A stretch of 64,000 nt of DNA. Origin: Arthrobacter castelli DSM 16402 (lineage in GTDB: Bacteria > Actinomycetota > Actinomycetes > Actinomycetales > Micrococcaceae). The DNA is taken from the NCBI RefSeq assembly GCF_000430705.1, contig NZ_AUMN01000004.1, positions 62,001 through 126,000 of the forward strand. The letters run 5' to 3'. Of the stretch, positions 3,776-37,052 are shown one piece after another. Made by a program: the position numbers and the translations under genes. The notes beneath the pieces are model-generated. The model did no database searches and was not told the DNA's origin. It was given only the letters and a program-made list of their open reading frames with translations. Position 1 is the first letter of the stretch. Each line of letters opens with the position of its first letter.

Positions 3776-4957
3776 GTGTCATCTCAACAGCAACTCCCGC
3801 CGCTGGTCGAACCGGGCGCCGACCTCACCGTGGACGAAATTGAGCGGTACTCTCGGCATCTGATCATTCCGGAAGTCGGAATGACCGGCCAACGACGGTT
3901 GAAGAATGCCCGGGTGCTGGTGATCGGCGCCGGCGGCCTGGGATCTCCGGCTCTGCTGTACCTGGCCGCGGCCGGCGTGGGAACCATTGGAATTGTCGAC
4001 GACGACGTGGTGGACACCTCGAATCTGCAGCGGCAGGTGATCCACGGGGTCGACGACGTCGGCCGGCTCAAGGCCGAGTCCGCCCGCGACGCCGTCGCCC
4101 GGCTGAATCCGCTGGTGGACGTTGTGCTGCATGTTGTACGGCTGGATTCGACCAACGCCCTGGACATTTTCTCCGGGTACGACCTGATTCTCGACGGAAC
4201 CGACAACTTCGCCACCCGTTACCTGGTCAACGACGCCGCCGCGATCCTGGGCAAACCGTATGTCTGGGGATCCATTTATCGCTTCGATGGCCAGATATCG
4301 GTCTTCTGGGACAAGTACGGTCCGAATTACCGCGATCTGTATCCGGAAGCGCCGCCGCCCGGAAGCGTCCCGTCCTGTGCCGAGGGCGGTGTGCTGGGCA
4401 TGCTTCCCGCTTCGGTGGGGTCTGTGATGGTGACCGAAGCCATTAAGCTGATTACCGGCACCGGAGAAACGCTGCTGGGCCGGCTGATGATCTACGATTC
4501 ACTGGCCATGAGATGGCGTGAGGTCAGGGTGCGTAAAGATCCGGATGCGGAGCCAATCACCCATCTGGTGGACTACGAGGCCTTCTGCGGGATCCTGCCG
4601 GCGGATGCTGCCGACGCCGCGGACTCAGCGGCCATATCGGTGCGGGAACTTGCCGGAATGCTGGAGGCCCGGGGCCGCGGGGACGACGACTTCGAACTGA
4701 TCGACGTTCGTGAGCCGGGCGAGTATGAGATCGTCAACATCCCCGGATCGGTGCTGGTGCCCAAGGCTAAGATTATCGACGGCGATGCCCTGGCCCGGTT
4801 CTCCGGCCGGAAGCTGGTGTTCCACTGCAAATCAGGGGCGAGGTCGGCTGAGGCCCTCGCAGTGGCGCAACGGGCCGGCTTTGACAGCGCCGTCCATGTC
4901 GACGGGGGAGTCGCGGCGTGGGTGGAGGAGATTGAACCGGCAAAACCGAGCTACTGA
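3776..4957 (+). CDS. moeZ: MoeZ-type adenylyltransferase/sulfurtransferase (ThiF/MoeB domain plus rhodanese)
   Basis: E1-like enzyme of 393 residues that adenylates the C-terminal Gly-Gly of sulfur carrier proteins (MoaD, CysO, possibly ThiS) and passes sulfur to them. The N-terminal domain carries VLVIGAGGLGSPALLYLAAA for ATP binding and DDVVDTSNLQRQVIHG with the R-finger region. The zinc CxxC pairs of MoeB are not present; only single cysteines (VPSCAEGG, EAFCGI) are seen. The rhodanese domain starts near residue 285 with the active loop CKSGARS near residue 353. The start is GTG. It is the only full E1 with rhodanese in the window, so it may serve the ThiS upstream; that is inference. Confidence 0.93.
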   Translation: MSSQQQLPPLVEPGADLTVDEIERYSRHLIIPEVGMTGQRRLKNARVLVIGAGGLGSPALLYLAAAGVGTIGIVDDDVVDTSNLQRQVIHGVDDVGRLKAESARDAVARLNPLVDVVLHVVRLDSTNALDIFSGYDLILDGTDNFATRYLVNDAAAILGKPYVWGSIYRFDGQISVFWDKYGPNYRDLYPEAPPPGSVPSCAEGGVLGMLPASVGSVMVTEAIKLITGTGETLLGRLMIYDSLAMRWREVRVRKDPDAEPITHLVDYEAFCGILPADAADAADSAAISVRELAGMLEARGRGDDDFELIDVREPGEYEIVNIPGSVLVPKAKIIDGDALARFSGRKLVFHCKSGARSAEALAVAQRAGFDSAVHVDGGVAAWVEEIEPAKPSY

Positions 4958-6890: not shown

Positions 6891-7952
6891 ATGACACTTC
6901 CACTTGACCATCCGCTGATGGATGGTCGCACGTCCGGCTCGCCGTTGATCGATGCCTACCGGTCCCGGAAGCCATCGCGGCGCCCCATCTGGTTCATGCG
7001 CCAGGCGGGGCGTTCGCTGCCGGAATACCGTGCCGCACGGGAAGGCACGGCCATGCTCGATGCCTGCCTCACGCCTGACCTGGCCGCCGAGATCACGCTG
7101 CAGCCGGTGCGCCGTCACGGAGTCGACGCCGGTATCTTCTTCTCGGACATCGTGATCCCGCTCAAGCTGGCCGGTATCGACGTCGACATTAAGCCAGGGG
7201 TGGGCCCGGTGCTGGGCCAGCCGGTCCGCACGGCCGCCGATGTGGCGTCCCTGCCGCCGTTGACCGACGAAGCCCTGGAGCCGGTCCGCGAGGCGGTACG
7301 GCTGGTGGTGGCGGAACTTGGCACCGTGCCGCTGATCGGCTTTGCCGGTGCCCCCTACACGTTGGCTGCCTACATGGTGGAGGGCAAGCCCTCGCGTGAC
7401 CACCTGGGCCCGCGGACTATGATGCACGCCGATCCTCAGGCGTGGAAGGCGCTGGCGGCCTGGACAGCCGAGGCCTCCGGCAAGTTCCTGCGCGCCCAGC
7501 TGGAAGCGGGCGCCAGCGCCGCCCAGCTCTTCGACTCCTGGGCCGGTTCACTGAGCCTGGCGGACTACGAGCAGCACGTGGCTGGCGCATCGGCCGCCGC
7601 CCTCGACCACGTGCGCGGACTGGACGCACCGCTGGTGCATTTCGGCACCGGAACCGGCGAACTGCTGGCGGCGATGCGCGACGTCGGCGCAGACGTGGTG
7701 GGTGTTGACTACAGGCTGCCGCTGGACGAGGCGAATCGCCGGCTCGGGGCGGACACTGTGTTGCAGGGAAACATTGATCCCGCGCTGCTGTCCGCACCGT
7801 GGTCCGTGCTCGAAGAACACGTCCGCGGGGTGCTTGCCGCCGGCCAGTCGGCGCCCGGCCACGTGGTCAATCTGGGACACGGGGTTCCGCCGGACACCGA
7901 CCCGGCCGTGTTGACGCGCATCGTGGAGCTCGTCCATTCGGTGGACCCGTAG
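6891..7952 (+). CDS. hemE: Uroporphyrinogen decarboxylase
   Basis: Decarboxylates the four acetate side chains of uroporphyrinogen III to give coproporphyrinogen III. 353 residues, the usual length. The family signature [18 protein letters not shown] near the N-terminus carries the substrate-binding arginines. [19 protein letters not shown] contains the catalytic aspartate region, and [16 protein letters not shown] and [13 protein letters not shown] are also conserved. The frame is open upstream to 6810, but that part is in the divergent promoter; the ATG at 6891 begins the conserved protein. The stop TAG overlaps the hemY GTG by one base, indicating coupling. Confidence 0.96.
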
Positions 7953-28300: not shown

Positions 28301-28813
28301 CCCGTGCCCAGGAAACCGGGGATGGCGGCGCGGCAGGGGACAGCCTTTCACACGTGGGTCGAAGAATACTTCGGAACCACCGGAATGCTGGAGTTTGAAC
28401 AACCGCGCACCGCCGACAGTTTCATTGACGAGAATTACGATCTCGATTCGATGACCGCGACCTTCAAGGAATCCGAATGGGCCAGACGTTCCCCGGCAGC
28501 CATCGAGGTCCCGGTGGAAACCCAGGTGGAGGCCGTGGTGGTCCGTGGCCGGATCGACGCCGTGTTCCAGGATCGGGACGGGACCTGGGACCTGGTCGAC
28601 TGGAAAACCGGCGCCGTGCCATCAGCGTCACAACTTGGGATCCGCGGCGTTCAGCTGGCGGTTTACCGGCTGGCCTGGGCGCGGTTGAAAGACGTTCCGC
28701 TCGACCGGGTGAATGCGGCCTTCTACTACGTCAAGGAGAACAAGGTCGTTCGTCCGCACGACATGGCCGGCGAGGAGGAACTTGAATCAGTGATCAGGTC
28801 CGCGTACGGGTAA
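25355..28813 (+). CDS. adnB: AdnB-like subunit of the AdnAB helicase-nuclease
   Basis: 1152-residue UvrD/RecB-like motor and nuclease, partner of AdnA. Walker A AGAGSGKT at residues 53-60 is canonical. Motif II VVLLDEFQDTSHAQ, motif III VGDPNQSIYGFRG, motif V VHASKGLEWDAVFVPGL and motif VI RRLAYVAYTRAKHVL are all intact, so this is the main motor. The C-terminal RecB nuclease domain shows WDLVDWKTGA and QLAVYRLAW. The GTG start overlaps the adnA stop by 4 bp. The extreme 3' end overlaps the convergent kinase-like gene by 20 bp. Confidence 0.92.
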   Translation: MNSASQAMLDLDGTGEQERFTPQQLASALGQHQPTEEQAAIISAPLEPLLVVAGAGSGKTATMADRVVWLVANGKVRPEEILGVTFTRKAAGELADRMRTQLANLSLKGLLPADVTSPSEADAGLLDPKVSTYHSYASSLVTDHGLRLGIERDSVLLGGAQSWQMASQVVEAYSGEFEHFTAAKSTLVQAVIQLAGECSEHLQHPGEVRTYLLQEAARMENLPYLEGKTKEPAAEARKIVDRLRTRATVAELVERYTGLKRERGALDFGDLVALAAKIADEVPAAGHMERQRFKVVLLDEFQDTSHAQMQLFSRLFGGGHPVTAVGDPNQSIYGFRGASAGQLFSFPTTFPLMDASGSGSAAPVKYLSIAWRNSVNVLSMANTISRPLNAVAPNRPGSARIEVPDLRSAPAAGAGKVILGRFETDADEAAAVVRRVEQYRATAFTRDEKTGRAVPTSAAVLCRRRAQMEPIRKQLEERAVPYEIVGLGGLLSTPEIVDLVATLRVLADPSRSDSLMRLLTGARWRVGPADLMAFSDWSKFLARQREKAFANPQEAGRQDESEAPVVEHDQVDSASLVEALDWLPRDGWTSGHGRSLSPEGLGRLHRLRQELNNLRTFIGDDLTTLLSEVERTMLLDIEVAAIPGVSIHYARRHLDAFHDAAAGYIQTAQRMDLLAFLSWLDAAAEEENGLDIPQVEVRRDAVQLLTVHASKGLEWDAVFVPGLNAATFPSDKDSRWSSGNSALPWPLRGDCAGLPVWDCDQRDQKGWVDSEKAFKGEVAHHTEMEERRLAYVAYTRAKHVLMCTSAAWNGSRGSVAGVSTFLEEVLPLAGGTEPAAAIELWADEDEVSTFNPMTVDLERAVWPYDPLEGPVGPDGPIRKRPGRRAQMERAARNVHAAAEGLSADSDGAPAADAGATPSSAGDGPAHPIDRASARWDTETSLLLERHNAPNHRLDVELPQHISASTLVDLADNPAEVVRQLRRPVPRKPGMAARQGTAFHTWVEEYFGTTGMLEFEQPRTADSFIDENYDLDSMTATFKESEWARRSPAAIEVPVETQVEAVVVRGRIDAVFQDRDGTWDLVDWKTGAVPSASQLGIRGVQLAVYRLAWARLKDVPLDRVNAAFYYVKENKVVRPHDMAGEEELESVIRSAYG

Positions 28814-30248
28814 CCGGATCCTGCCGGTCGGCGGTGCCGGGGTCCGGGGCATCGCCGCGGTCGGGACCGACCTCGCGCTCGGGGCTACGGTCGGGATCTG
28901 CCTCCTCGCCGGAGTCCGGACCGTTATCCGAGTCAACGTCCGACGACGGATCGGAGCCCGAGTCGACGGCGTCGTCGCCTTCGGGGTATTCGTCGGCGGG
29001 AACGGGCTGCACCGTGACCTTATCGTTGTCGGCGGGCCGGGCAGAGGCATCAGCGCCGCCCGCGGGGTCCTGGTCGGCAGTGTCATTGGTTCGCGATGTA
29101 TCGAGGTCCGGGCCGTCGTCGGCGTCACTGCCCGGTTCCGGCGCCGCCTCGGCGTCATCGTCGGTGCCGGTTGTCACTATCGCCTCATCGGGTATCTCTG
29201 CTGCGTTCGCCTCGGCGTCATCGTCGTGGCGGGAATCCGGCACCGGGTCGCTCGTCTCCACCTCCCCGGTGCTGATGGGCGCCACGGACTCTGAGTGCGG
29301 ACGCTCCGGGGGATCCGCCGAAATCGGCTGGCCGCCGTACTCAGCGATGTCCGATTCCAGCGCGGCGAGCATTTCCTCAGCCTCGGCGACCACGGCCGGA
29401 TCATCGATTGCGATGCCCCGCACGAGCCATTGGGCCACGGCAAACTCGGCAGACAGCGCGGCACGGCGAAGCAGATGGCGGTCCGGGGCACGCTGGACAG
29501 CCACCGAATACGATTCCAGCACCGAATCGGCGAAGCGCTGGTCGTTGGCAGCGATCAGCCAGGCGAAGTCATCCGCCGGATCTCCAATGCGCATATCCGT
29601 CCACCCGTTGACGCCGGTGACACGGGCCTGATCTATCAGCAGTTGGTCTTCGTGGAGGTCACCGTGCACGACTGACGGCTGGAACTGCCACAATGCAGCA
29701 TCTTCGAGGGCATTCTCCCAGCGCAGCAATAACGACGACGGAATCTTTCCGGTCGTCGCTGCCTGATCCAGCTCGTTGAGTTTCCGCTGGCGGAATTCGT
29801 CGGCGCTGTAGCTGGGCAGGTCCGCCGAGTGCACCAACTCCAACGGCAAATCATGGATCGCGGCCATGATCCTGCCAAGTTCGGCGGCGATGTTGCCGGG
29901 TTCTGCCACCAGCTGGTCGATGCTGCGGGTGGACCCGGGAACATGTGAATAGACGAATGTGGACAGGTTTCCCTGGCGTACTGTTCCAGCCACGTTGGGC
30001 AACAGGAACGGCAATTCGGCCCGGACCGCCGGGGTGAAGCACCGCAGCACATGCAGTTCCGTTTCCAGGCGGACACTTGCCTCGGCATGTTTGGGCGAGC
30101 GCACACGCCACCGTTTGCCGGCGTCGTCAAGCAACACAGCGGACTGAAAATCCGCTGCGTCGTCGGGTGCGGTGGCGACCCCTGCGGGTGTCAGGCCGGG
30201 TACCGCGGCGCTTGCTATGGCTGCCAGTTCGGTGGGAGTTCTTGTCAC
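28794..30248 (-). CDS. Aminoglycoside-phosphotransferase-fold protein with long acidic tail
   Basis: 484 residues. The first ~310 form an APH/macrolide-phosphotransferase-like kinase: a nucleotide-binding lobe (AVLLDDAGKRWRVRSPKH), the catalytic loop SVVHGDLHEDQLLI, and GDPADDFAWL. Two deviations are visible: the catalytic-loop Asn is Gln, and the metal-binding Asp of the usual I-D-W motif is missing (GVNGWTDM). Small-molecule kinase activity is therefore uncertain. The remaining ~170 residues are Asp/Glu/Pro/Ser-rich and presumably disordered. The GTG start at 30248 faces nudC. Genes of this type are commonly next to adnAB/nudC in actinobacteria, so it is probably not a resistance gene. Confidence 0.75.
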   Translation of the reverse strand: MTRTPTELAAIASAAVPGLTPAGVATAPDDAADFQSAVLLDDAGKRWRVRSPKHAEASVRLETELHVLRCFTPAVRAELPFLLPNVAGTVRQGNLSTFVYSHVPGSTRSIDQLVAEPGNIAAELGRIMAAIHDLPLELVHSADLPSYSADEFRQRKLNELDQAATTGKIPSSLLLRWENALEDAALWQFQPSVVHGDLHEDQLLIDQARVTGVNGWTDMRIGDPADDFAWLIAANDQRFADSVLESYSVAVQRAPDRHLLRRAALSAEFAVAQWLVRGIAIDDPAVVAEAEEMLAALESDIAEYGGQPISADPPERPHSESVAPISTGEVETSDPVPDSRHDDDAEANAAEIPDEAIVTTGTDDDAEAAPEPGSDADDGPDLDTSRTNDTADQDPAGGADASARPADNDKVTVQPVPADEYPEGDDAVDSGSDPSSDVDSDNGPDSGEEADPDRSPEREVGPDRGDAPDPGTADRQDPVTRTRT

Positions 30249-30423: not shown

Positions 30424-31419
30424 ATGAGCAACACAGTTCCGCCCGCAGGGCCTTCGCCCGAAGATGCTCACCCTCCATTAGGATCACTGGCGCTGGCCCG
30501 GGCGGGCGTGGACCGCGGAGGCGACTGGCGGGTGACGCCGGGGCTGATGGAACGACTCTGGTCCGCGCCCGGAACCAAAGTCATGCTGATCGCGCATGGC
30601 CGCAGCCCGGTCCGTGACTCCTCGCTGCTGCTGGTGGATGCCGCCAGCATTGACCCCACCCGGACCCCGGTGTATCTGGGGCATACGACGGTTGCCGGTG
30701 CCGGACCTGCCGGCAGCGAACCCGCGGGGACCGACGTCGTCCTGTTGATGCTCAAGGAACCTTCCAACCAATGGGAGGGCGACGAATCGGTCCGATGGAT
30801 TGGACTTCGCGAGGCCGCCACGGAACTGCCTGCCCGGGATGCGGCGCTCTTTGTGGAAGCGGCGGCCATTGCCAACTGGCACGCCACGCATACCCATTGC
30901 CCGCGGTGCGGCACGCCCACGGATGTTGAATCCGGCGGCTGGGTCCGGCGGTGCCCGGTGGATAACAGCGAGCACTTCCCGCGCACCGACCCGGCGATCA
31001 TTGCCACGGTGATTGACGAGAACGACAGGCTGCTATTGGGAAGTTCGGCACAATGGTCCAACAAGCGGTTTTCCACGCTGGCTGGTTTCGTTGAGCCCGG
31101 GGAGTCGCTCGAAGCCGCGGTCATCCGGGAAATTGCCGAGGAATCCGGTGTCCGCGTCCATTCGCCGCGCTATCTGGGTTCGCAGCCGTGGCCATTCCCG
31201 GCGTCGCTCATGCTGGGATTCACCGCCCGCGCCCACAGCGCAGAAGCCGTGCCCGACGGCGTCGAAATCAGTGACCTGCGCTGGTTCACCAGACAGGAGC
31301 TGACTGAGGCAGTGGGCAGCGGGGAAGTGGTGATTGCCTCCGGCGCCTCCATCGCGCGGTCACTGATCGAGCACTGGTACGGCGGGCCGATTGCGGAGCC
31401 GGCGGGACCGCAGCCGTGA
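30424..31419 (+). CDS. nudC: NAD(+) diphosphatase / NADH pyrophosphatase NudC
   Basis: 331-residue Nudix hydrolase that cleaves NAD(H) and removes NAD caps from RNA 5' ends. The zinc-ribbon region reads HCPRCGTPT and RRCPVDNSEHFPRTDP: three cysteines are present and the fourth ligand position is not Cys. The Nudix box GFVEPGESLEAAVIREIAEE is intact (G-x5-E-x7-REuxEE), followed by the NudC hallmark SQPWPFPASLM. GGAAGG abuts the ATG. Its stop overlaps the uvrD2 GTG by 4 bp, so both are coupled. Confidence 0.93.
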   Translation: MSNTVPPAGPSPEDAHPPLGSLALARAGVDRGGDWRVTPGLMERLWSAPGTKVMLIAHGRSPVRDSSLLLVDAASIDPTRTPVYLGHTTVAGAGPAGSEPAGTDVVLLMLKEPSNQWEGDESVRWIGLREAATELPARDAALFVEAAAIANWHATHTHCPRCGTPTDVESGGWVRRCPVDNSEHFPRTDPAIIATVIDENDRLLLGSSAQWSNKRFSTLAGFVEPGESLEAAVIREIAEESGVRVHSPRYLGSQPWPFPASLMLGFTARAHSAEAVPDGVEISDLRWFTRQELTEAVGSGEVVIASGASIARSLIEHWYGGPIAEPAGPQP

Positions 31420-33611
31420 GCCAGACAAGCATAGCCGGCGACCTCGGACAGGAGCAGTCCCTGGAGGAACGCGTCCTCGGCGCACTGGATGACGAACAGC
31501 GCAGCGTCGCCTCAACGTTGACCGGACCATTGTGCGTATTGGCCGGGGCCGGAACCGGAAAAACCCGTGCGATCACACATCGCATCGCCTACGGAGTGCA
31601 CGCCGGTGTGTACAAACCCCAACAGGTATTGGCCGTGACCTTCACGGCCCGCGCCGCCGCCGAAATGCGCACCAGGCTGCGGGATCTGGGCGTCGCCGGT
31701 GTGCAGGCGAGGACGTTCCACGCCGCGGCGCTGCGGCAACTCCAGTTCTTCTGGCCGCAGGCCATCGGCGGCCAGCTTCCGGGCCTGCTCGACCACAAGG
31801 CCACGCTCATCGCCGACGCGGCGCGCCGGCTGAGGCTGAGCACCGACCGCGCGGCCATCCGGGACCTGGCGTCGGAAATCGAATGGGCCAAGGTGTCAAT
31901 GCTCACCCCTGACACCTACCTGGCGAAGACCGCAGGCAGACCGGAACCGGCAGGCTTCGACTTCACCACCATCGCCCGGCTCTTCCAGGCGTATGAGGAC
32001 GTCAAGACCGACCGGAACGTCATCGACTTCGAAGACGTGCTGCTGATTACCATTGGCATCCTGCAGGAGGATCCGCGCGTCGCCGCGGCCGTCCGCGCCC
32101 AGTACCGGCATTTCGTCGTCGACGAGTACCAGGACGTGTCGCCCCTGCAGCAGCGGCTGCTCCAGCTGTGGCTCGGCGACCGCCAGGAATTGTGCGTGGT
32201 GGGGGACTCCAGTCAGACCATCTATTCGTTCACCGGCGCCACGTCGCGGCACCTGCTTGAATTCACTCGTAAGTTCCCGGAAGCCGACGTCGTCAAGCTC
32301 GTGCGCGATTACCGGTCCACTCCGGAGGTGGTGAAACTCGCCAATGATCTGCTGGCGGCACGCACCAGGGAAGTGGATGCGGCCGCCCGGCGGCGTGAAG
32401 CACTGGGTGGCGTCGCCCCCGCGAAAAAGTCCGTCCGGGACAGCTGGGCCAGGCCGTTGGAGCTGATCGCCCAGCGGGACTCCGGCCCGCCGCCGTCGTT
32501 CGAGGAATTCACCGACGACGAGGCCGAGGCCGCCGGAACAGCCCGCAGGATCAAAGCTTTGGTCGACGACGGCGTCCCGGCCAGCCAGATCGCGGTGCTC
32601 TACCGCACCAACGGTCAATCCGAGGCCTACGAGCAGGCCCTGGCGGCTGCCGGTATCGGGTATCAGCTGCGCGGCGGCGAGCGGTTCTTCGCACGCCGGG
32701 AAGTGCGGGACGCCATCCTGCAGCTGCGGGCGGCATCCCGCACGGCCGGCGGCGACGATGTGCCCCAACTGGTCAGGGACGTGCTTTCGTCCCTGGGGTA
32801 CAGCGCCGAGGGGCCGCAGAGCAGCGGGGCCGTCCGGGAGCGGTGGGAGTCGCTGGCGGCGTTGGTGGCACTGGCCGACGACGTCGCCGCCACCCGGCGG
32901 CAGATTCCGGGGGCGCAGTTCACCCTGGCCGATTTCGTGTCGGAACTGGATGAGCGGGCAGCGGCTCAGCATGCGCCAACTGTGGAGGGCGTGACTCTTG
33001 CATCTCTGCACTCCGCGAAAGGTCTGGAATGGGACGCGGTGTTCCTGGTGGGCCTCAGTGAAGGCCTGATGCCGATATCGTTCGCCAACACGGAAGAGGG
33101 CGTCGACGAGGAACGCCGACTGCTCTACGTAGGCATCACCCGCGCGCGCAAGCATCTGGCGCTGTCCTGGTCGACGGCGCGTACTCCCGGAGGCCGTGCC
33201 AGCCGGAAACCAACACGCTTCCTCGATGGTCTCAGGCCGGACTCGGCTCCGGCGTCGTCGGGCCGAACCGGCGCAGCTCCCAAGAGACGCAAGGCCGCGG
33301 CGCCGGCGCAGTGCCGCAGTTGCGGGCAGATGCTTGCCTCCGGGGCCGAACGCAAGGTCGGCCGGTGCAGTGATTGTCCGCCGGCGTACGACGAAGCGAC
33401 CTTTGAGGCGTTACGGCAATGGCGGCTCAAGGTTGCCACCGAGTCGGGAGTTCCGGCATTCGTCGTATTCACTGATGCCACGCTCGTCGCTATCGCCGAA
33501 TCGAAGCCGGCCGACCCGCGGCAATTGTCTGCTGTGGCAGGTGTGGGAGCCAGTAAACTCGACCGCTACGGGGAAGCGGTGCTGGCCATCATCAACGAAC
33601 CGGACGACTAA
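31416..33611 (+). CDS. uvrD2: ATP-dependent DNA helicase UvrD2
   Basis: 731-residue superfamily 1A 3'-5' helicase. Walker A AGAGTGKT is at residues 43-50; motif II VVDEYQDVSPLQ, motif III VGDSSQTIYSFTGA, motif V LHSAKGLEWDAVFLVGL and motif VI RRLLYVGITRARKHL are intact. The C-terminus shows the UvrD2 hallmarks: a tetracysteine zinc motif (QCRSCGQML...GRCSDC, near residues 630-650) and a terminal HRDC domain (PAFVVFTDATLVAIAESKPA, with GVGASKLDRYG). It overlaps nudC (GTGA). The whiB7 gene that often sits next to uvrD2 is not present here. Confidence 0.94.
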   Translation: MSQTSIAGDLGQEQSLEERVLGALDDEQRSVASTLTGPLCVLAGAGTGKTRAITHRIAYGVHAGVYKPQQVLAVTFTARAAAEMRTRLRDLGVAGVQARTFHAAALRQLQFFWPQAIGGQLPGLLDHKATLIADAARRLRLSTDRAAIRDLASEIEWAKVSMLTPDTYLAKTAGRPEPAGFDFTTIARLFQAYEDVKTDRNVIDFEDVLLITIGILQEDPRVAAAVRAQYRHFVVDEYQDVSPLQQRLLQLWLGDRQELCVVGDSSQTIYSFTGATSRHLLEFTRKFPEADVVKLVRDYRSTPEVVKLANDLLAARTREVDAAARRREALGGVAPAKKSVRDSWARPLELIAQRDSGPPPSFEEFTDDEAEAAGTARRIKALVDDGVPASQIAVLYRTNGQSEAYEQALAAAGIGYQLRGGERFFARREVRDAILQLRAASRTAGGDDVPQLVRDVLSSLGYSAEGPQSSGAVRERWESLAALVALADDVAATRRQIPGAQFTLADFVSELDERAAAQHAPTVEGVTLASLHSAKGLEWDAVFLVGLSEGLMPISFANTEEGVDEERRLLYVGITRARKHLALSWSTARTPGGRASRKPTRFLDGLRPDSAPASSGRTGAAPKRRKAAAPAQCRSCGQMLASGAERKVGRCSDCPPAYDEATFEALRQWRLKVATESGVPAFVVFTDATLVAIAESKPADPRQLSAVAGVGASKLDRYGEAVLAIINEPDD

Positions 33612-33655: not shown

Positions 33656-34720
33656 TCAACTCACGGCCGGAACCGAAGCGGTAGCCCCCAGGCACCCGCA
33701 ATCGGGATGTGGTGAGTAACTGTGGGTGACGGTGGAACCGTCGGCCGCCCTCACCTGGACCACCGTCGACCAGCCCGAGGGGCGGTTGACACCGTCGACC
33801 AGCAGCAGGGATTGCAGCACGGCCGGACCTGCGGCAGATAGGGCCAATGCGCTTTCTTCCGGCCCGGTGGAATCCCTGGCCATTGCCCGCCGACGCATGG
33901 TCCGGCACATGTTGAGCCATTGCGGATCCTGGTCTGCCCGATGCCGGTCGACGCATTCAGTGCAGGCTGTTTCTCCGGGGACGACGAGCGGTCCAATCAG
34001 TACGTCGTGGTCACGCAGCACTACGGGAAGGTGGGGATGTTCGCGGTGCATGAGTTCTGCCTGCAGCCGGTCATCCGTGACATCGCTGCTGATGGAAATA
34101 ACTAAGTCGAGGGAGAACGACCCCGTGCCGCCGGCATGGGCGGTGCCAAGGGGGTGCGCCCGGATCGTGGGGTCGATGTGGTGGATCTGGCGGCGGACGG
34201 CGGCAGTACGGCCCATGCCGATGTCGCAGAGCCGGTAGGAGCCGGCACCGACATCGCATGCCCGCACCCGGTGGGCGTCCTCCAGCAGCAGGGTGCCGAT
34301 ACCGGCGGCCGCGAGGGCCTGAGCTATAACACTTCCGGTCCTCCCCAGTCCGGCGATTCGGACGGCCGCCCGGCTGCGCCGCTCCATCAACGGCACTGCG
34401 TCCTGTTCATAAGCCGCGGACCACTGTTCAACATCCGGGCCCAGGCGATCCGAACGCAATCCTGACAAGCCGGAGGCCTCTGTGCCGCCATGAATCAACA
34501 CGGGGTCGAGGAGTTCCATCAAGTATTGCGCCCGCGCCGGCAATAGTCCGCACTCGCTGGCGAGCATGGATCCGGACTTGTTCGTTCCGTCCATCAGGCA
34601 CCACAGGAGCTTCTTGTCCGGGTCGGTCAAACCGTCGAGGACAATGCTCTGTTCTCCCACCCCGAATTGCACGCAATGCCCGGATCGTTCGAACATCTGC
34701 AGTCGGCGATTGATATGCAT
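33656..34720 (-). CDS. ThiF/E1-like protein (TOMM-cyclodehydratase-like family)
   Basis: 354 residues. The N-terminal half resembles the leader-binding/winged region of azole-forming cyclodehydratases (LTDPDKKLLWCLMDGTNKSG). The Rossmann part RIAGLGRTGSVIAQALAAAG, with a divergent adenylation region, makes it E1-like. A structural zinc site is likely from ETACTECVDRH and HPDCGCLG. ATG 34720 has GGGAGG 7 bp upstream, better than starts at 34735 or 34756. Members occur as single genes beside uvrD2 and YgjP-type protease genes in actinobacteria. No YcaO gene or precursor peptide is nearby, so natural-product synthesis is unsupported. Substrate unknown. Confidence 0.7.
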   Translation of the reverse strand: MHINRRLQMFERSGHCVQFGVGEQSIVLDGLTDPDKKLLWCLMDGTNKSGSMLASECGLLPARAQYLMELLDPVLIHGGTEASGLSGLRSDRLGPDVEQWSAAYEQDAVPLMERRSRAAVRIAGLGRTGSVIAQALAAAGIGTLLLEDAHRVRACDVGAGSYRLCDIGMGRTAAVRRQIHHIDPTIRAHPLGTAHAGGTGSFSLDLVISISSDVTDDRLQAELMHREHPHLPVVLRDHDVLIGPLVVPGETACTECVDRHRADQDPQWLNMCRTMRRRAMARDSTGPEESALALSAAGPAVLQSLLLVDGVNRPSGWSTVVQVRAADGSTVTHSYSPHPDCGCLGATASVPAVS

Positions 34721-34885: not shown

Positions 34886-35440
34886 ATGACTACTGACGCA
34901 CCGCAGGTTGAAGTCCGACGTTCCGCCCGCCGTCGTCGTACCGTTACCGCATTTTGGGAGGACGGCGTAGCCGTCGTGGCGGTGCCGGGGCACTTGAGCA
35001 CGGCGGAGGAACAGGAATGGGTGCAGAAGATGGTGCCTAAGCTGGAACGCAAGCGTGCCCAAAACGCGGGCAAAATGCGTGGTGGTCCGTCAGGCGATCA
35101 GGACCTGATGGACCACGCACTGCGGTTGTCCGGCCGCTACCTGGATGGAAGGGCCCGGCCGAAGAGCATCAAATGGGTGGACAATCAGAACACCCGGTGG
35201 GGGTCGGCCACACCCGCGAACGAGAGCATCCGGATATCAAGCAAGATCCGGGGTATGCCGCAGTGGGTGATCGATTATGTGCTGCTGCACGAGCTCGCCC
35301 ACTTGCTGGTCGCCGGGCACAACACCAGGTTCTGGCAACTGCTGGAGGCCTATCCGGATACGGAGCGCGCGAAGGCATTCCTGGAAGGGGCGGCGTTCGC
35401 CACGTCGCGTGGACTGAGCGGAGAAACGGGCCTGGATTAG
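34886..35440 (+). CDS. YgjP-type (DUF45/M48-like) metallopeptidase
   Basis: 184 residues, cytoplasmic, no signal peptide. The zinc motif HELAHLLVAGHNTRFW (HExxH with a downstream His six residues on) and the preceding NQNTRWGSATPANESIRIS are the signature of the YgjP/SprT-like family (DUF45). The N-terminal strand VEVRRSARRRRTVTAFWEDG is also typical. Function in bacteria is undefined; a peptidase role is implied by the motif. It is convergent with the zinc-dependent protease gene at 35520, with a hairpin between them. Confidence 0.88.
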   Translation: MTTDAPQVEVRRSARRRRTVTAFWEDGVAVVAVPGHLSTAEEQEWVQKMVPKLERKRAQNAGKMRGGPSGDQDLMDHALRLSGRYLDGRARPKSIKWVDNQNTRWGSATPANESIRISSKIRGMPQWVIDYVLLHELAHLLVAGHNTRFWQLLEAYPDTERAKAFLEGAAFATSRGLSGETGLD

Positions 35441-35519: not shown

Positions 35520-37052
35520 TCAAGGGCGCCAGCCCGGATGGCCCCCGCCGTCGTCACCATCGTCGCGGTCCGGATCCTCGTTGCCGGACTCTTCCGGCGA
35601 CCCTTGGCCACCGGTGTTGTCCCCATATTGGGGGTCCTCGTTCCCGGATCCGCCGACTGAAGGGCCAGTGGCCCCGTCGTCGTTGCCGTCACTGGTCTCG
35701 ACGTCACCTGTCGGCTGATCCTCGTAACCGCCGGACAGCAGTTTCTGCAGCGCCGCGTCGACGTCCTGATCCGAGGCTTCCATCAGCTGCCGGCGTTCGT
35801 CGAACCCGGCCGGGTCGTCCAGATCCTCGGCAGTCGGCAGCAGGTCGGGGTGGGCCCAAATAGCATCCCGCCCCTCGATGCCGCGGTCCTTTTCCAGCTT
35901 GGCCCACAGCGCGGCCGCATCGCGGAGCCGGCGGGGACGCAATTCCAGTCCCACCAAAGAGGTGAAAGCGTGTTCGGCCGGACCGCCGGTCGCGCGGCGG
36001 CGCCGGACCGTTTCGCGCAGCGCCTCGGCCGAAGGGAGGTTGCTGGCGGCGGCAGCGGTCAACTGATCCACCCACCCTTCGACCAGCGCGAGCGTGGTCT
36101 CCAACTTCTCCAGGGCGGCGTCCTGTTCGGCGGAACGCTGCGGCATGAACACGCCTTGTGAGAGTGCTTCCTGGATTGACTCCGGGTTTGACGGATCGAT
36201 GTCGCGGGCCAGCTCCTCGATCTTGCCGGTATCAATGTGGATCCCGCGGGCGAAGCTTTCAATCGCTCCCAACAAATGTCCGCTCAGCCACGGTACGTGG
36301 GTAAACAACCTGGCATGGGCGGCCTCGCGCACAGCCAGGAACAGCATCACTTCCTGCGGCGGGACGTCCAGCCCCTCACCGAATGAAGCAACGTTGGCGG
36401 GGAGCATGGCCATTTGGTTTCCGGCCAGCGGAATACCTATGTCGGAGGCGCTGACCACTTCGCCCGACAGCGCACCGACGGCCTGGCCGAGCTGCATACC
36501 GAAGAGTGCGCCGCCCATGTTCTGAAGCATCGACTGGGCCCCGCCCATCATCGACTTCATTTCCTCGGGCATTTGTTCACCAAGTGCTGAGGAGAGAGCG
36601 AACGCCACGGAGTTGGCGACCGGCTCGGTCATCCGCTTCCACGTGTCCATGGTCTCTTCGACCCATTCGGCACGGGACCAGACCCGGCCGATCATGCTGG
36701 TGCCGGGGAAATCCGTGGCCGGTTCCAGCCAGATTTCAGCCAGCCGGAGGGCCTCATCGACCTCGTGCGACTGTGCACTTGTCACGGAAGGATCCTCGCC
36801 GGCCGCTGCCGCCTGCCTGGCGTTCTCATGGGCCAGCTGCCAGTTCACCGGCGCATCGCTCTGCGAGCTCATCATCGACTGGACCTGCTGGAACATCATG
36901 GCCAACGCTTGCGGGTCAGACGGCATGCCGCTGGCCTTGGCGAACTCCTCCGGATCGATGCCGCCGGCCCCCTGTGAGCCGAAGAGCTTTGCCAGCATCT
37001 CCGACAGGGGATCTTTTGGATCCTCGCCTTCATGGGGTGGGTTCGAACTCAT
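35520..37052 (-). CDS. Zinc-dependent metalloprotease family protein (DUF2342-like)
   Basis: 510 residues of a conserved actinobacterial family annotated as zinc-dependent metalloprotease or F420-associated hydrolase. Helical N-terminal region with WSRAEWVEETMDTWKRMTEP and GAQSMLQNMGGALFGMQLGQ. The putative active segment is FLAVREAAHARLFTHVPWL, where REAAH stands in place of HEAAH, as is common in this family. ALVEGWVDQLT and the basic stretch RRRRATGGPAEHAFTSLVGL follow. The last 80 residues are low-complexity and acidic with SGNEDP twice. It is divergent from the PDZ-Lon gene. Protease activity is by family name only. Confidence 0.85.
   Translation of the reverse strand: MSSNPPHEGEDPKDPLSEMLAKLFGSQGAGGIDPEEFAKASGMPSDPQALAMMFQQVQSMMSSQSDAPVNWQLAHENARQAAAAGEDPSVTSAQSHEVDEALRLAEIWLEPATDFPGTSMIGRVWSRAEWVEETMDTWKRMTEPVANSVAFALSSALGEQMPEEMKSMMGGAQSMLQNMGGALFGMQLGQAVGALSGEVVSASDIGIPLAGNQMAMLPANVASFGEGLDVPPQEVMLFLAVREAAHARLFTHVPWLSGHLLGAIESFARGIHIDTGKIEELARDIDPSNPESIQEALSQGVFMPQRSAEQDAALEKLETTLALVEGWVDQLTAAAASNLPSAEALRETVRRRRATGGPAEHAFTSLVGLELRPRRLRDAAALWAKLEKDRGIEGRDAIWAHPDLLPTAEDLDDPAGFDERRQLMEASDQDVDAALQKLLSGGYEDQPTGDVETSDGNDDGATGPSVGGSGNEDPQYGDNTGGQGSPEESGNEDPDRDDGDDGGGHPGWRP

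Follow-up and report, generated by a model that had tools for sequence, protein, structure and literature searches.

Genes of the locus

The gene considered here, designated E1L, lies in a 64 000-nt stretch of the Arthrobacter castelli DSM 16402 genome; this whole stretch of analysed DNA is referred to as the window. Choosing an upstream GTG start would lengthen the E1L product from 354 to 366 aa. As stated in the initial annotation, E1L is situated beside uvrD2 (44 bp from its end) and beside a gene for a YgjP-like metallopeptidase (165 bp to its start); another 79 bp separate the YgjP gene from the next gene, encoding a Zincin_2 protein (Table 1). The E1L and YgjP genes of the window are divergent and stand within a long conserved block. 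These three gaps leave little intergenic room for a precursor peptide gene, in line with the earlier observation that none is near; an overlapping or distant precursor would escape such an inspection.

Window positions 28794-30248 (minus strand) encode a protein of the APH (phosphotransferase) fold that bears a long, acidic tail of low complexity; its gene sits between adnB and nudC, both in the window and in the loci of many relatives. Scored with 19 NCBIfam models for resistance proteins and kinases, this protein stays below the cut-off of each.

Table 1. Coordinates of E1L, of its sequence elements and of neighbouring genes (window positions unless another locus is named)
Feature	Coordinates	Strand	Remarks
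E1L	33656..34720	-	354 aa; orphan RRE + degenerate E1/ThiF-fold protein
uvrD2 helicase (UvrD + HRDC)	31416..33611	+	Convergent to E1L; domain matches, synteny
YgjP-like metallopeptidase	34886..35440	+	Divergent from E1L; HELAH motif at residue 135
Zincin_2 metallopeptidase-like protein	35520..37052	-	Domain matches
E1L residues 1-75, predicted RRE-type winged-helix fold	34496..34720	-	Three strands, three helices; AlphaFold2 + VIA-align
E1L residues 124-129, GLGRTG, altered glycine loop	34334..34351	-	Arg127 in 62/70
E1L residues 148-172	34205..34279	-	Asp148 kept; A159 and R171 replace NLxRQ Arg and E1 Lys
E1L Cys253-x-x-Cys256, presumed zinc site, first half	33953..33964	-	C253 and C256 each in 70/70
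E1L Cys341-x-Cys343, presumed zinc site, second half	33692..33700	-	C341 in 69/70, C343 in 66/70
DUF5679 gene	L061 8101-8337	+	Equivalents in L063-L066, L068, L070, L071, L074-L080
ABC1-domain, MABP-1-like ATPase gene	L065 7139-8911	-	PF03109, 184 bits

Domain composition and predicted fold

The Pfam ThiF model (PF00899) matched E1L residues 112-190 with 38.7 bits (cut-off 28.1), in agreement with the divergent ThiF fold recognized initially. The NCBIfam model TIGR03882 matched residues 229-341 with 37.0 bits, barely over its cut-off of 36.9. Thus, the cyclodehydratase-like match previously placed at the N-terminus of the protein sits in its C-terminal part, and the N-terminus (residues 1-85) is predicted to have an RRE-like fold.

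We built an AlphaFold2 model of E1L from 26 sequences (mean pLDDT 90.8) and used it in a Foldseek search. Among the best 50 of 244 matches at E ≤ 0.001, the top 24 rows were chains of MccB (best E-value 2.7e-20, TM 0.71); these were followed by PaaA (E-value 8.8e-17), MoeB, ThiF and other E1 proteins. Structural alignment of whole E1L by VIA-align gave for MccB (PDB 3h5n and others) a Z of 27.2 over 320 residues, spanning residues 1 to 346, for PaaA (PDB 5ff5) a Z of 25.9 and for MoeB a Z of 24.1 over 234 residues. A search with the E1L sequence profile put MccB (9.9e-20) first as well, ahead of PaaA (5.9e-12), TruD (2.8e-7) and LynD (2.6e-4).

When residues 1-85 were modelled alone with AlphaFold2 (pLDDT 87.5), three strands followed by three helices were predicted. 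In VIA-align comparisons this model was closest to ThcOx (Z 9.0), TruD (7.9), LynD (7.7), MccB (7.4), the PbtF RRE (7.2), PaaA (7.0) and TbiB1 (6.9). Values of Z below 8 are weak alone, and what carries weight for the RRE assignment is the composition of the ranked list: rows 1-17 (Z 9.0 to 6.7) are all RiPP-pathway proteins, and so are 23 of the 29 top rows, the six others being five entries for GdmN and one for BmdC. Winged helices of other kinds rank lower, e.g. that of RNA polymerase III (Z 5.3) and those of Lrp/AsnC-type DNA-binding proteins (up to 4.7). Of the seven closest proteins, ThcOx, LynD and TbiB1 are known RRE carriers; for the four others an RRE is named in the entry title (PbtF) or described in PMC12250964 and PMC10634744 (MccB, PaaA and TruD).

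With the RRE domain alone, Foldseek gave no match at E ≤ 0.001, the best one being ThcOx at 0.018. Because the N-terminus of E1L is predicted to be a winged helix, and given this Foldseek result and the six non-RiPP rows, DNA binding or another role is possible for it. Along these lines, E1L could be a regulator that contacts DNA through its winged helix and uses its Rossmann-type domain as a sensor of a nucleotide or metal. The winged helix itself and the appearance of RNA polymerase III and Lrp/AsnC-type proteins in the lower part of the list would fit such a function; still, with the 17 leading rows all of RiPP origin and with E1L aligned to MccB almost from end to end, we consider a regulator unlikely.

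Conserved and lost residues

Residues were counted in 70 aligned sequences (those of loci L001-L030 and of 40 further loci of the class, with duplicates dropped); equivalences were taken from profile alignments, the one with MccB serving to locate the catalytic Asp. At position 159, equivalent to the Arg of NLxRQ, Pro was found in 48 sequences, Ala in six and Arg in none. The equivalent of the GxxK Lys, position 171, is Arg in 57 sequences and Lys in one. At position 212, corresponding to the catalytic Asp, an Asp occurs in four sequences, with Asp somewhere in positions 211-213 in 25. The ribose-type Asp148 is kept in 62 of the 70 sequences and Asp156 in 64. The Arg, Lys and Asp considered here are the known catalytic residues of E1 proteins. 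As a positive control we used the MoeZ protein of the window, for which GAGGLG, the NLQRQ stretch and the Lys were seen in the profile alignment and TDN in the translation.

Mutational data on PaaA (PMC12250964) indicate that both R174 and K187 are required: R174A sharply lowers activity and K187A abolishes it. We infer that these residues are the E1 Arg and Lys, since their spacing of 13 matches that in MccB and MoeZ; the E1L equivalents would then be Ala/Pro and Arg, respectively.

Since the catalytic Arg, Lys and Asp have been lost across the 70 sequences, MccB-type adenylation by E1L is unlikely, and so is the activation role suggested initially. At the predicted ATP site, the E1 fold and Asp148 are retained, whereas Arg, Lys and the catalytic Asp are lost according to the alignments; the divergence noted before can accordingly be narrowed to a loss of most, not all, adenylation residues. 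Nucleotide binding, e.g. through Asp148, is perhaps retained. Conservation of D148, D156 and R171 is more than pure scaffolding would require. Together with the MccB fold, it would be expected if E1L were a working MccB-like enzyme with a rebuilt site (Arg171 standing in for Lys, and Arg127 within the glycine loop) that activates some small protein at its C-terminus; DUF5679, discussed below, would be the candidate substrate where present. Yet the catalytic Asp and the Arg of NLxRQ are unconserved, and we find a working enzyme of this kind rather unlikely.

Two cysteine pairs of E1L (Table 1) fit a presumed structural zinc site, as the initial annotation had it, and are conserved. The second pair in MoeB is CxxC; in E1L it is CxC instead.

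Distribution and constraint

Comparison with the orthologue in a locus of a congener (L002) gave for E1L a dN of 0.26 and a pS of 0.75, with synonymous sites near saturation; for YgjP these values were 0.19 and 0.69. In 17 loci with all four genes, the median identity to the window proteins was 34% for E1L, 50% for YgjP, 66% for uvrD2 and 71% for Zincin_2. Judged by these sequence comparisons, E1L is a true gene, constrained yet fast-evolving.

In a set of 59 genomes (its own included), E1L was matched in 42 by a single-protein search and in all 59 by the E1L profile, whose weak matches include MoeB/ThiF paralogues. We counted E1L as present in 45 of the 59: 38 with clear matches, six with weak matches verified at the locus (G005, G008, G014, G035, G041 and G044) and one, G012, accepted by its coordinates beside YgjP. 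Class-wide, the profile matched 290 of 296 genomes; this is an upper bound, again because of the paralogues among the weak matches. Many families of the class have relatives of E1L. The profile was also searched against 197 genomes of the phylum, 18 of which belong to the same class. In the 179 others nothing better than 3.9e-16 was observed, and matches were mostly to the ThiF core; G369 had two C-terminal or longer matches (3.9e-11 and 4.4e-10). Within the sampled phylum genomes, the E1L family looks confined to the class.

Linkage with YgjP

The association with the metalloprotease gene proposed to be conserved is indeed so. YgjP is within the flanks of E1L in 27 of 30 loci, and in 40 of the 40 genomes with both genes counted the two are within about 2.2 kb, with the reservation that for up to six of these (G005, G008, G012, G014, G035 and G041) the position beside YgjP was part of the E1L call. 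The further suggestion was that the two proteins belong to one modification or activation system, in which YgjP would be the processing peptidase. Proximity in 40 of 40 genomes and the HELAH motif kept by YgjP would agree with that; the pattern of presence and absence does not. Among the 59 genomes both genes were present in 40, E1L only in five, YgjP only in 12 and neither in two (Fisher p = 0.67), i.e. co-occurrence was at chance level. With a looser YgjP threshold the respective numbers were 42, 3, 14 and 0 (p = 1.0), and with clear E1L calls plus G044 only they were 34, 5, 18 and 2 (p = 1.0). The first of these countings has seven genomes lacking YgjP; three of them gave no match at all, and the other four (G039, G044, G055 and G057) gave short weak ones that were disregarded.

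We also inspected the locus in 12 of the 14 genomes lacking E1L. In 11 of the 12 (L081-L091, all in the family of the window) YgjP still abuts uvrD2 and thus keeps its place after E1L loss. The twelfth locus, L092, has a DUF5679 gene and a marginal E1L trace between YgjP and uvrD2 (7306-7853: DUF5679 retained, the trace behind it); the trace may represent a decaying or very divergent E1L.

Gene order was followed in 20 diverse loci of the class as well: uvrD2 and Zincin_2 were each found in 18 and YgjP in 15; contig ends cut two of the loci. In two mycobacterial-looking loci (L072 and L073) E1L stands just behind Zincin_2 with no YgjP near; this arrangement presumably fits the Rv3195-Rv3196 order of M. 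tuberculosis. A literature search yielded no function for YgjP.

With the divergent orientation of the two genes in the window counted in as well, a joint E1L-YgjP system appears highly improbable to us. What is seen is co-location without co-dependence. The link looks positional, a long-standing gene order with YgjP as a neighbour rather than a demonstrated partner.

YcaO genes and the TOMM label

The initial annotation described E1L as a solitary TOMM-type protein with no YcaO gene nearby. Solitary it is: the search extended to its whole genome (98.95% complete) gave 0 YcaO matches, and the TIGR03882 cut-off was passed by a hair. YcaO was found in 13 of the 59 genomes with no association to E1L (both 9, YcaO only 4, E1L only 36, neither 10; p = 0.48). 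Barring a YcaO gene in an unassembled gap, a YcaO partnership of E1L was therefore rejected for this genome.

TIGR03882 matches 24 of 26 E1L family members at E ≤ 0.001, which is what one would expect if E1L were a true TOMM protein that binds the leader for a YcaO from another part of the genome. The same model, however, scored 41 to 48 bits with the four proteins scanned out of six E1-like ones adjacent to YcaO genes of relatives, so that it barely separates them from E1L. According to PMC2887384, regions matching TIGR03882 are stated by the authors of the model to be fused to a docking scaffold; E1L, of 354 aa and with no YcaO domain, is unfused.

Eight YcaO loci were examined. In six of them (L106-L111) the YcaO gene has a separate adjoining E1-like gene, in contrast to E1L; in the other two (L112 and L113) no E1-like match was seen beside YcaO, and they were left out of the tree. 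The tree, which has 32 rows, places the six YcaO-adjacent proteins in a group of their own with a modest support of 80/77, the bootstrap having not settled. MoeZ, on a long branch, comes out among the E1L rows without a resolved position; hence E1L is not shown by the tree as one clade. Given the missing YcaO, the chance-level association, the absence of fusion and this separate grouping, we assign to a role of E1L in a TOMM pathway an almost negligible probability, and the TOMM label looks like over-annotation.

An anti-phage E1-E2 system was set aside: among the six window neighbours of E1L that were scanned there was no E2, JAB, ubiquitin-like or MoaD/ThiS-like protein. The 17 matches that PADLOC gave for E1L were weak and concerned E1-E2 models throughout (best 8.4e-8); for YgjP it gave none.

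Neighbours outside the family of the window

We searched for conserved small ORFs around E1L in the 20 diverse loci (L061-L080). In 15 of them, the gene just upstream of E1L, in the same orientation, codes for a 52-aa zinc-ribbon protein (PF18930 DUF5679, 54.8 bits versus a cut-off of 27). Its tail, ...RILGKA, is strongly conserved, with a length that differs by a few residues. The DUF5679 protein looks far better conserved than E1L itself. DUF5679 is present in 150 of 296 class genomes and in 12 of the 59 near genomes; it was not found in the genome of the window. No paper naming it was found in a full-text search of open-licence PMC text.

Position and tail make this protein attractive as a substrate in the working-enzyme reading. 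Against this, DUF5679 occurs in 12 of the 59 genomes versus 45 for E1L, is lacking in the genome of the window, has a tail of variable length, and is carried by four (G101, G162, G190 and G192) of the six genomes of the class in which E1L was not matched.

Directly downstream of E1L and on the same strand, an ABC1-domain gene was found in 16 of the 20 loci (judged by tblastn bounds, at most 156 bp away or overlapping it); in a 17th locus it is 2.5 kb away. The protein from L065 matches the NCBIfam model of the macrolide-binding ATPase MABP-1 over full length with 477.7 bits, below the cut-off of 800. Of the five ABC1 matches in the genome of the window, the best two (best 3.3e-8) exceed the Pfam cut-off but span only some 80 to 100 of 244 positions; in other genomes the matches are close to full length. 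Since E1L persists without DUF5679 or a full-length ABC1, its essential client would be something else or would vary.

A WhiB-family gene (PF02467), which by motif and place we take to be WhiB7, is within 4.5 kb of E1L in 17 of the 20 loci. Such a neighbour would suit the regulator reading; against it, none is beside the E1L of the window, where DUF5679 and ABC1 genes are absent too.

MABP-1 (Rv3197) is an ATPase reported to confer inducible resistance to macrolides (PMC8696161). A term search of the two MABP-1 papers revealed no mention of Rv3196. The possibility that Rv3196A, a gene treated in PMC10159623, is a DUF5679 protein was set aside, as no DUF5679 match is near E1L in L072 and L073.

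Proposed role of E1L

In our view the odds are about even that E1L is an actinobacterial adaptor of MccB/PaaA-type ancestry and vertical inheritance, peptide-binding and adenylation-dead. An ancestor of the MccB/PaaA type would have given rise to E1L with loss of adenylation. The RRE would hold a short peptide or a protein tail via strand addition, as in RiPP systems, and the E1 fold would serve as a docking platform, probably as a dimer, as in PaaA. Such a platform might act as McbB-type E1-like scaffolds do for their enzymes, with a nucleotide perhaps bound via Asp148; chemistry on the client would be done by another protein, if at all. In most loci outside the family of the window the candidate partners would be the adjacent DUF5679 protein and the ABC1 ATPase.

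A more elaborate version is that of a housekeeping actinobacterial module near whiB, in which the dead RRE-E1 protein would present a client to the atypical ABC1-family ATPase and which was pared down to the E1 in the lineage of the window. The client in many orders would be the upstream 52-aa DUF5679 protein, the downstream ATPase would supply the ATP chemistry that the E1 has lost, and the whiB neighbour would be a regulator of the antibiotic-response type. We regard this module as quite improbable.

The combination of RRE and E1 is the recognition module of RiPP natural-product pathways; its presence in an old chromosomal gene that is spread over many families of a single class, and that apparently does without adenylation and YcaO, suggests a cellular role for peptide-clamp E1 proteins outside natural products. 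Also, a current annotation model can tag an ordinary gene of the chromosome as belonging to TOMM machinery and would thereby mislead genome mining. Concrete candidates for the client and the partner are the neighbouring DUF5679 and MABP-1-like proteins.

Comparison with known systems

A 2009 survey of the E1-like superfamily may already list the E1L family. Our searches of open-licence PMC text brought up no description of an E1L-type gene, and none is mentioned in passages of PMC12710340 and PMC1779556. The authors of RRE-Finder report RRE-like matches in non-RiPP contexts (PMC7470986).

The closest relatives in architecture are MccB, the microcin C7 synthetase, and PaaA of the pantocin A pathway, both sharing with E1L an RRE and an E1 domain in a fold matched over the whole length. 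MccB acts without YcaO, as E1L would. It keeps, however, the NLTRQ motif, the GxxK Lys and the SAD Asp, residues that E1L is without, and it has a dedicated precursor, whereas no precursor gene was seen at the E1L locus.

The principle proposed for E1L is that of McbB- and Ocin-ThiF-type proteins, where an RRE-bearing E1-like scaffold binds the leader for separate enzymes (PMC10634744, PMC7470986). Differences from these and from TIGR03882-type proteins are that for E1L no YcaO was found, no fusion exists and no precursor was seen, and that E1L occurs class-wide in a conserved chromosomal block. With MoeZ, MoeB and ThiF it has in common the ThiF fold and conserved cysteine pairs; unlike them, it has unconserved catalytic residues and the extra RRE domain.

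A protein of the latter kind is encoded in the window as well: a MoeZ-type E1 with a rhodanese domain at positions 3776-4957 (plus strand), with intact catalytic residues and a score of 640.5 that falls just short of the NCBIfam MoeZ cut-off of 647.
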